Below are positions 17,268 to 56,195 of a stretch of 64,000 bases of DNA, in pieces. This DNA comes from Rhizobium etli CFN 42 (GTDB lineage: Bacteria > Pseudomonadota > Alphaproteobacteria > Rhizobiales > Rhizobiaceae). The notes under the pieces were generated by a model that was given only the letters and a program-made list of their open reading frames with translations, had not been told where the DNA came from and made no database searches. The translations under genes and the position numbers were made by a program. Within the stretch, counting starts at the first letter, position 1; every line of letters begins with the position of its first letter. The stretch is taken from positions 2,421,001 to 2,485,000 of the forward strand of contig NC_007761.1 of the NCBI RefSeq assembly GCF_000092045.1, read 5' to 3'.

Positions 17268-17429
17268 GGCTTTTCCAGGCTGGTTACGAGGGAAAAAACT
17301 TAGCTGCGCAACGAAACTTGTGGGAAACTTGCCCCTTCCCCAGCGTTTTAATGGTCATTTTTCATCCTGGCAGACTCAACCGGAACGCGTTAATATGAAC
17401 ACATTCGAAAGTTCAGCTACGGCATCTGG

Positions 17430-17543
17430 ACTTTCCTCGTTGGGTTCTCCTGGCGCGTTCCTAAGCCGCGGATGTTCCTCCCTCATCCGTTGGTAATGCG
17501 CCCGCCTCGCCTCGCTCGCACCAGCGCGCGAGGCGTCTTTTTT
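17430..17543 (+). ncRNA. mmgR: candidate trans-acting sRNA, alpha-r8/MmgR-like
   Basis: Start is approximate. A hairpin CGGATG (17469-17474) / CATCCG (17484-17489) displays the loop TTCCTCCCT, an anti-Shine-Dalgarno sequence like the UUUCCUCCCU core I recall for the alpha-r8 (MmgR) sRNAs of Rhizobiales. It is nested in an outer stem GGCGCGTT (17452-17459) / AATGCGCC (17495-17502). A classic terminator follows: CGCCTCGC (17508-17515) / GCGAGGCG (17528-17535), then six T's ending at 17543. No coding frame spans it. In Sinorhizobium MmgR limits polyhydroxybutyrate granules; the same role here is inference. Confidence 0.6.
17508..17543 (+). terminator. terminator of the candidate sRNA
   Basis: Stem CGCCTCGC / GCGAGGCG with an inner CGC/GCG pair, followed by TCTTTTTT (T tract ends at 17543). 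Confidence 0.8.
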
Positions 17544-53841: not shown

Positions 53842-54579
<738 letters not shown>

Positions 54580-54589
54580 CTATCTTGCC

Positions 54590-54752
54590 AGGCCGGTCTT
54601 CTGACTTGGCGTCATCCGTCTGCCGCAGCCTTCCCGGCAAAACCCAGTGGCATGATGAAGCGGCGGGCGTCGGCCTTACAGCGTTGGGCACGTTCCGGTC
54701 TTGCACCGGATTCCCGATTCTCCCGCGTGAAAGCGGGCACCTGACGAGGTAT
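54590..54752 (-). promoter_or_regulatory. cobalamin (B12) riboswitch
   Basis: On the minus strand the element starts near 54750 with AGGTGCCCGC, runs through GGGAATCCGGTGCAAGACCGGAAC and reaches the B12-box region GCCACTGGG (complement of 54643-54651) and GGGAAGGC, ending near GTCAGAAGACCGGCC. These are the canonical conserved blocks of the AdoCbl riboswitch. Binding of adenosylcobalamin should repress bluB. Confidence 0.93.
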
Positions 54753-54929
54753 CTATTTCAGGAAAGCGCTTCGCGGGCAAGCGGAGGCAGCCGAGTCCGA
54801 TGAGGCCGTTAGGCAAACAGCGATTTTTCCGCCTGACGTGCCGGTAAACAGGCGGCCGCTGGTCACGACCACGCTCGATGCATTGGAGACTGCTGCACGC
54901 CCAAGCCCTCTTTCAGGCCGCAGATTCTG
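54752..54929. other. spacer between the bluB riboswitch and the aro leader
   Basis: About 180 bp. It must contain the bluB promoter (minus strand). A short plus-strand frame (54880-54936, MHWRLLHAQAL...) has one Trp and one Phe but no ribosome site and is not claimed. Confidence 0.4.
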
Positions 54930-54958
54930 CGTGACAACGGAAGGCCGCCACGCTAAAC
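54930..54958 (+). promoter_or_regulatory. predicted promoter of the aromatic leader, start at the AUG
   Basis: CGTGAC (54930-54935), 17-bp spacer, CTAAAC (54953-54958), close to the alphaproteobacterial CTTGAC-N17-CTATAT. Seven bases downstream is A54966, the first base of the leader ATG, implying a leaderless message, as is known for the trpL leader of Sinorhizobium. Confidence 0.5.
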
Positions 54959-54965
54959 ACGCCGC

Positions 54966-55040
54966 ATGTCGATCACTTCTGTCTACGCCTCGCGATTTTA
55001 TTGGTACCGCTGCTCCCAGCGGATGCGGGCCCGTGCGTAA
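54966..55040 (+). CDS. aromatic leader peptide (24 aa, contains FYWY)
   Basis: Frame ATG...TAA encoding MSITSVYASRFYWYRCSQRM plus RARA. Codons 11-14 are Phe-Tyr-Trp-Tyr (54996-55007), another Tyr is codon 7: four different-codon aromatic residues in a row, one or more of each aromatic amino acid made by the pathway of the following DAHP synthase. There is no Shine-Dalgarno sequence; the predicted promoter places the transcript start at the A of the ATG. The aromatic codons end exactly at the first arm of a hairpin (55007-55012 / 55017-55022). A classical role as ribosome-stalling sensor is inferred. Confidence 0.75.
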   Translation: MSITSVYASRFYWYRCSQRMRARA

Positions 55041-55096
55041 CTGAATTCGACGCGACGACCACCCGAACAGCCGCTAGTCTACCTGGCGGCTTTTTT
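55007..55096 (+). promoter_or_regulatory. attenuator of the class I DAHP synthase
   Basis: Segments: 1 = CCGCTG (55007-55012), 2 = CAGCGG (55017-55022), pairing perfectly; 3 = AGCCGCTAG (55069-55077), 4 = CTGGCGGCT (55083-55091), a 9-bp stem with one G-U pair followed by six T's (55091-55096). AGCGG of segment 2 can instead pair with CCGCT (55071-55075) of segment 3, breaking the terminator. Stalling on FYWY would cover segment 1 and favour read-through. Confidence 0.72.
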
Positions 55097-55130
55097 GTTC
55101 CGCACGGTATGACCAAACAGGAGCCATGCC

Positions 55131-56195
55131 GTGCCCGATACCATCGATGATCTGCGTATCCTCGAGATCACCCCGCTGACCAAACCCGCCGATATCATCG
55201 CGGAAATCCCCCGCACCGTTGCCGTCAGCGAGACGGTGACCAGCAACCGTCATGCGATCCATCAGATCCTTGAGGGAGAAGACGACCGCCTGATCGTCGT
55301 CATCGGCCCCTGCTCCATCCACGATCCTGCTGCAGCACGCGAATATGCCGAGCGCTTGGCGGAACAGCGGCAGCGCCTCTCCAGCGATCTGGAAATCGTC
55401 ATGCGCGTCTATTTCGAAAAGCCCCGCACCACGGTCGGCTGGAAGGGTCTGATGAACGACCCGCATCTCGACGGCAGCTACCGCATCGAGGAAGGGCTTC
55501 GCATTGCCAGGCGCCTGCTGCTCGACATCAACGCAATGGGCCTGCCCGCTGGCGTCGAATTCCTCGAGACGATCACGCCGCAATACATCGCCGACCTTGT
55601 TAGCTGGGGCGCGATCGGCGCGCGTACGACCGAAAGCCAGATCCATCGCCAGCTCGCCTCCGGCCTCTCCTGCCCGATCGGCTTCAAGAACGGCACCGAC
55701 GGCGGCGTCCGTGTGGCGCTCGACGCCATCCTGGCCGCCTCGCAGCCGCATCACTTCCCCGCCGTCACCAAGGACGGGCAGGCCGCCATTGCCTCGACGA
55801 AGGGCAACGAGGACTGCCACATCATCCTGCGCGGCGGCAAACAGCCGAACTATGAAGCGGACGATGTCGAAGCTGTGGTCGGCGAGGCCGTCAAGCTAGG
55901 CGTGACCCCGCGCATCCTGATCGATGCCAGCCATGCCAACAGCCGCAAGGATCCGATGAACCAGCCGCGCGTCGTCAAATCCGTGGCCTCGCAGATCGCC
56001 GCCGGCAACCGCCACATCAAGGGTATGATGATCGAGAGCAACCTCGTCGCCGGCCGCCAGGATCTCGTCCCCGGCAAACCGCTGGTCTACGGCCAGTCGA
56101 TCACCGATGGCTGCATCGACTGGGACATGTCGGTAGCAGTATTGGAAGACCTGGCGAAAGCCGCTGGCGCGCGGCGCAAAGCGGCGGCGGCTTAA
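55131..56195 (+). CDS. aroG: class I 3-deoxy-D-arabino-heptulosonate 7-phosphate synthase
   Basis: First step of the shikimate pathway: phosphoenolpyruvate plus erythrose 4-phosphate. 354 residues from a GTG at 55131 with GGAG (55120-55123) seven bases upstream; an ATG five bases earlier is out of frame. Class I signatures: VVIGPCSIHDP, MRVYFEKPRTTVGWKG, ARTTESQ, GFKNGTDG and ILIDASHANSRKDP. Usually feedback-inhibited by one aromatic amino acid; which one is not clear. Expression is probably controlled by the attenuator 35-165 bp upstream. The last four bases overlap the convergent propeller gene. Confidence 0.95.
   Translation: MPDTIDDLRILEITPLTKPADIIAEIPRTVAVSETVTSNRHAIHQILEGEDDRLIVVIGPCSIHDPAAAREYAERLAEQRQRLSSDLEIVMRVYFEKPRTTVGWKGLMNDPHLDGSYRIEEGLRIARRLLLDINAMGLPAGVEFLETITPQYIADLVSWGAIGARTTESQIHRQLASGLSCPIGFKNGTDGGVRVALDAILAASQPHHFPAVTKDGQAAIASTKGNEDCHIILRGGKQPNYEADDVEAVVGEAVKLGVTPRILIDASHANSRKDPMNQPRVVKSVASQIAAGNRHIKGMMIESNLVAGRQDLVPGKPLVYGQSITDGCIDWDMSVAVLEDLAKAAGARRKAAAA

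Follow-up and report, generated by a model that had tools for sequence, protein, structure and literature searches.

A predicted ribosome-mediated transcription attenuator upstream of the class I DAHP synthase gene aroG of Rhizobium etli and its proteobacterial relatives

How is aroG, the gene of a class I DAHP synthase, controlled in Rhizobium etli CFN 42? The question was raised by an original prediction made from the letters of a 64,000-nt stretch of this genome (contig NC_007761.1, positions 2,421,001 to 2,485,000; here called the window), according to which a leader-peptide attenuator with a run of aromatic codons precedes the gene. A scan of related loci, covariation and the spacing of the elements strongly support this reading, and aroG is very probably controlled by a ribosome-mediated transcription attenuator. 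The region contains clustered codons for the end products, an intrinsic terminator between leader and gene, an antiterminator that shares a strand with the terminator, a hairpin between strands 1 and 2 (1:2), and candidate stall codons at an appropriate place (Table 1).

The aroG product scores 526 bits against TIGR00034, for which the cut-off is 173.2. Its closest relatives of solved structure are those of the Phe-sensitive E. coli enzyme, and the nearest named homologues, all from Rhizobium, are 91–96% identical. The gene has a Shine-Dalgarno sequence of its own, which the original prediction had overlooked. At a distance of about 6 kb from aroG lies a class II DAHP synthase gene (TIGR01358; 62088–63398, minus strand), and the same stretch therefore encodes two unrelated enzymes for one step. 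The covariance models of Rfam 15, used at the gathering score, found nothing at the leader; their only matches in the window were the small RNA Atu_C7 (17400–17539, plus strand, 54.7 bits) and a cobalamin riboswitch (54574–54759, minus strand, 114.4 bits) upstream of bluB (TIGR02476; 53842–54537, minus strand). The riboswitch is divergent from the aroG leader, so that two RNA switches would stand back to back.

Table 1. Elements of the aroG leader region, in window coordinates
Feature	Position	Strand	Remarks
-35-like box GTGACA	54931–54936	+	GACA invariant in 55/55 close homologues; preceding G and T in 54/55 each
-10-like box TAAACA	54954–54959	+	first two bases TA in 55/55 close homologues
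Leader peptide frame	54966–55040	+	24 codons plus stop, MSITSVYASRFYWYRCSQRMRARA*; ATG 54966, TAA 55038–55040
Candidate stall codons Phe-Tyr-Trp-Tyr (TTT TAT TGG TAC)	54996–55007	+	sequence and homologue comparison
Strand 1, CCGCUG	55007–55012	+	pairs with 55017–55022
Strand 2, CAGCGG	55017–55022	+	pairs with either strand 1 or strand 3; its GCG core does not vary among the 60 representatives
Middle antiterminator helix, 5′ arm	55024–55029	+	pairs with 55062–55065 and 55068–55069; folding
Inner hairpin between both antiterminator sides	55032–55057	+	folding
Middle antiterminator helix, 3′ arm (CCCG, CA)	55062–55069	+	folding
Strand 3, terminator 5′ arm	55069–55077	+	in the antiterminator, 55071–55075 is the partner of strand 2
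Strand 4 (CUGGCGGCU) and T-run of the terminator	55083–55096	+	sequence, folding, covariation
Shine-Dalgarno AGGAG of aroG	55119–55123	+	read from the sequence
aroG, class I DAHP synthase (AroG type)	55131–56195	+	354 aa, start GTG 55131; NCBIfam TIGR00034

The 24-codon frame with four consecutive aromatic codons was present as described originally. Its length, start and stop position are identical in 55/55 close homologues (window included). The first stall codon specifies Phe in all 55, and the two Tyr codons are kept in 54 each, with a single His in place of the first and a single Phe in place of the last; the third codon is Ser in 27, Trp in 25, Ala in 2 and Tyr in 1. Across the family the aromatic codons vary synonymously (TTT 137, TTC 62, TAT 84, TAC 59), so that it is the amino acid that is conserved.

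Three RNA pairings had been proposed, and each was recovered at its place: hairpin 1:2 directly behind the aromatic codons, a terminator (3:4) with six T's, and the alternative 2:3 pairing of AGCGG (55018–55022) with CCGCU. The terminator consists of 9 bp including one G-U pair (55069–55077/55083–55091), a loop at 55078–55082 and T's at 55091–55096. Pairings 2:3 and 3:4 are mutually exclusive. In addition, the 2:3 pairing extends inward beyond what had been noticed before, since U55024-G55025 pair with C55068-A55069 and CGGG (55026–55029) with CCCG, around the inner hairpin. In a fold that begins at the border of a ribosome stalled at the last aromatic codon and includes strand 3 up to its end, i.e. 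in the state before strand 4 exists, this composite antiterminator reaches −20.1 kcal/mol.

The short 2:3 pairing had been named as a weak point of the attenuator. The composite antiterminator eases this concern, but the simple duplex in the Rhizobium group was no better than dinucleotide shuffles (window p 0.58); in the family p was ≤ 0.05 in 50/149 and ≤ 0.01 in 31/149 cases, with a median z of −0.66. For the interior of the antiterminator, z was −0.7 in the window, the family median was −1.32 and 37/60 representatives were below −1. Once strand 4 has been made, the terminator (−27.1 kcal/mol) is more stable than the antiterminator (−22.1 kcal/mol) and hence the switch would have to be kinetic. 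The folding energy of the entire leader was discarded as evidence because it is too weak (z −1.43 for 54966–55131, z −1.91 for 55008–55100).

To look beyond close homologues, a rule fixed beforehand was applied to the 360 nt upstream of each relative, demanding a start codon, 8–50 codons, at least three F/Y/W within six residues and a terminator 30–130 nt past this cluster. It matched 149/181 upstream regions and 0/905 mononucleotide shuffles. The loci are not independent, since they had been selected for similarity of the enzyme and in some cases represent one sequence fetched twice; locus L052 (too short) and four further loci (duplicates or other genes) were left out. Elsewhere in the fetched loci 20/6750 tiles matched, and among 1062 overlapping tiles covering both strands of the window the aroG leader was the sole match. 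By this rule 32/181 loci had no such leader. Most of these were below 63% identity (Psychromonas, Nitrosomonas and other Gammaproteobacteria), while L051, L142 and L173 had none despite 65–68% identity.

A covariance model built from the family gave 12 matches in 12 genomes when 120 genomes were searched at E ≤ 0.001, several of the matched sequences or their close kin having been in the model. According to their coordinates, 12/12 are located immediately upstream of a DAHP synthase gene. A second match in the R. etli genome (E 0.287), a terminator region elsewhere, was taken as chance. One genome carries two DAHP synthase genes (L176 and L198); the model matched before one of them, and by the scan the other had no leader.

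Structural conservation was evaluated on 124 distinct regions and on 60 representatives that are less than 88% identical. In the terminator, 95.1% of 535 cells were paired and 39 had changed on both sides, and 0/500 shuffles were as high on either measure. For the outer antiterminator 80.2% of 474 cells were paired, with 19 changed on both sides, and its covariation score was reached by 0/500 shuffles; two of five measures were within the shuffles (pairs changed on both sides 167/500, pair types 330/500). The core pairs of the antiterminator never vary and are therefore uninformative on covariation. Pair 36-112 is G-C in 50/60 and A-U in 6/60 representatives; the A-U cases belong to the Rhizobium lineage, in which strand 3 holds its terminator partner via a G-U wobble. 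When the stretch between strands 2 and 3 is folded together with both strands, the best structure contains at least 4 of the 2:3 pairs in 60/60 representatives, a 1:2-like fold was found in 49/60, and folds resembling the middle antiterminator helix occur in many of the 124 regions.

The spacing is conserved as well. The edge of a ribosome lies at about 12–13 nt, and the nearest aromatic codon starts 12–15 nt upstream of the GCG core in 50/60 representatives; it is farther in 7 and nearer in 3, and all three of the latter also carry an aromatic codon at 14 nt. In the window, as in Rhizobium, the codons start 14, 17, 20 and 23 nt from the core, compared to 15, 18, 21 and 24 nt in most of the family. 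The reading phase of the core in the Rhizobium lineage differs from that in most of the family, but the distances hold, which argues that conservation acts on the core at the level of RNA and on the codons at the level of spacing. The stop codon is located 24 nt past the core in 40/60 representatives. The alignment that had been suggested as a check of the prediction turned out in its favor, with codon cluster and spacing largely conserved, the Trp codon excepted, and with compensatory changes in the terminator. It confirms, on comparative grounds, the aroG leader as one copy of a predicted attenuator family in front of AroG-type DAHP synthase genes that is wider than had been assumed.

Upstream of the frame, the two promoter-like boxes keep their positions at −35 to −30 and −12 to −7 relative to the leader ATG in the 55 close homologues, the invariant bases being GACA at −33 to −30 and TA at −12 and −11. 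The original prediction had set +1 at the leader ATG. The boxes are kept, and the spacing of the −10-like box would place the start site at about that position. Hence, the leader message is probably leaderless, comparable to trpL of Sinorhizobium meliloti. The lack of a Shine-Dalgarno sequence before the leader, previously counted as a weakness, is what is expected of a leaderless message. Among 62 further representatives, hand-picked from the scan matches, Shine-Dalgarno-like bases precede the nearest ATG in 5, and a −35-like box according to our own pattern is present in 26, nearly all of them Alphaproteobacteria. The leaderless reading appears best founded for Alphaproteobacteria, and the Burkholderiales copies fall outside that support.

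We propose that RNA polymerase initiates at about the leader ATG, and that a ribosome binds the leaderless message and translates the frame while following the polymerase. With charged tRNAs for Phe, Tyr and here also Trp, the ribosome would reach the stop codon and obstruct strand 2 as well as the middle helix; 3:4 would then form and transcription would terminate near 55096, yielding an RNA of about 131 nt. If charged aromatic tRNA is scarce, the ribosome would stall at the aromatic codons, covering strand 1 but not strand 2. The exposed strand 2, together with the bases that follow it, could then pair with strand 3 to give the composite antiterminator ahead of the synthesis of strand 4, and the polymerase would enter aroG. 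In the case of no translation, 1:2 would form and termination would be the default.

Other explanations of the same elements were weighed. The leader might mainly be the source of a small RNA or peptide acting in trans, with control in cis secondary, as precedents from S. meliloti suggest in the available parts of the reports on rnTrpL and peTrpL (PMC10117765, PMC7298713). Termination would indeed yield a short leaderless RNA along with a peptide, but what is conserved is what control in cis requires, i.e. codon spacing, strand sharing and the position before the gene, and the covariance model matched only before DAHP synthase genes; we consider this quite improbable. It is hardly credible that the region is a plain partial terminator next to a chance frame, unregulated and with an untranslated leader. 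The terminator is the most stable end state, as that explanation would have it, but the conserved frame, the synonymous changes in its aromatic codons and the fixed spacing speak against it. A riboswitch alone, a chance frame and transcription from the divergent bluB side were rejected as readings of the locus.

Which amino acids would the ribosome-mediated attenuator respond to? All 60 representatives have Phe in their codon cluster, 59 have Tyr and 39 have Trp. The original suggestion of one sensor for shortage of any aromatic amino acid agrees with these numbers for Phe and Tyr, but less so for Trp, which is missing in 30/55 close homologues. A tree built from 35 rows of the close group implies at least 6 switches of the Trp codon, and the Burkholderiales rows checked have none. 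Phe and Tyr are likely inputs of the aroG attenuator, and the Trp input seems to be optional. A Trp leader of its own, MIKSLNIAVWWWAR*, precedes trpE in the R. etli genome (L199, C2:3215238-3217388). A pattern of Trp runs modeled on S. meliloti trpL had no match in the genome, and this leader was located via the trpE family; its GCCGCC/GGCGGC terminator much resembles that of aroG.

A narrower input has, in our judgement, almost an even chance: the attenuator may sense mainly Phe (or Phe and Tyr), with the Trp codon neutral and the Tyr codons of little weight. The frequent absence and repeated switching of the Trp codon and the separate leader before trpE point in this direction. So does the Phe-Tyr-Phe leader aroR of Corynebacterium, which according to the accessible part of the report answers Phe and not Tyr (PMC11802643) so that codon content is no proof of each single input. 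Against it stand the Tyr codons kept in nearly all representatives and the recurrence of Trp in many lineages.

An aroG-type gene was present in 10/199 sampled genomes of the family Rhizobiaceae, in 59/397 of the order and in 225/398 of the phylum sample. A quick tree of 107 of the 141 full-length proteins requires at least 4 changes of the leader state. The members from Rhizobiaceae sit in two places; in a test on hand-picked rows, 19 as one clade versus 19 others was rejected (p 0.0019). Probably, the family acquired gene and leader on more than one occasion, or there was widespread loss of both. According to a more far-reaching picture, which we regard as rather unlikely, leaderless pan-aromatic attenuators form an old family in Proteobacteria that travels with aroG between lineages, has its input re-tuned by single codon changes (Trp repeatedly gained and lost in Rhizobium) and produces a terminated RNA of about 131 nt or a 24-residue peptide that also acts in trans like rnTrpL or peTrpL.

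The textbook proteobacterial case of control at this level is that of the repressor proteins TyrR and TrpR in E. coli. If our reading is right, many Alpha-, Beta- and Gammaproteobacteria would set the entry step of aromatic amino acid synthesis by tRNA charging, using a single leader that in most cases reads Phe together with Tyr, and frequently Trp as well. With its naturally occurring variants FYWY, FYSY and FYAY, Rhizobium would provide a ready series to learn how one codon sets the input of an attenuator, and the same series bears on the question whether a switch of this kind can work by leaderless translation.

Among known systems, the pheL-pheA and ilv/leu attenuators of enterobacteria are the classic stalled-ribosome switches; they work as proposed here and in some cases sense several amino acids by mixed codons, but they belong to other genes and use ordinary ribosome binding. 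The original prediction named no earlier description of such an aroG attenuator. Outside Proteobacteria, however, leader-peptide attenuators that precede DAHP synthase genes are on record, as far as the accessible parts of these reports tell. In Corynebacterium glutamicum, aroR before aroF mediates ribosome-dependent attenuation with clustered Phe/Tyr codons as in the aroG leader (PMC4046766, PMC11802643); it belongs to another phylum, no Trp codon is reported in those parts, and the two are alike by description. The uORFC-13-1 motif before aroF of Acholeplasma likewise combines a candidate leader frame, having a Phe codon, with a terminator (PMC8632094), but its structure differs and it is listed there only for Acholeplasma and environmental sequences. 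A Shewanella attenuator prediction includes aroF and aroH in its available part. The main text of a survey of premature terminators, as far as accessible, does not name the aroG leader family (PMC2965389), and the open-licence literature yielded no DAHP synthase leader for Rhizobium, Bradyrhizobium, Burkholderiales or Xanthomonads, a prior report in subscription literature or supplements being possible. The leaderless trpL of S. meliloti, the frame of which starts at the AUG according to the part available (PMC10117765), resembles the aroG leader in its presumed leaderless frame and, through the leader before trpE of R. etli, in a similar terminator. It carries Trp codons only and precedes trpE, whereas the aroG leader carries Phe and Tyr (plus Trp) codons and precedes aroG; the run of Trp codons before trpE typical of the trpL family is absent from the aroG leader, which has one Trp codon, and the trpL of this genome is located elsewhere. 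Within the open-licence literature, the predicted aroG leaders are a new family of an already known kind, represented by aroR-aroF and by the leaderless trpL.
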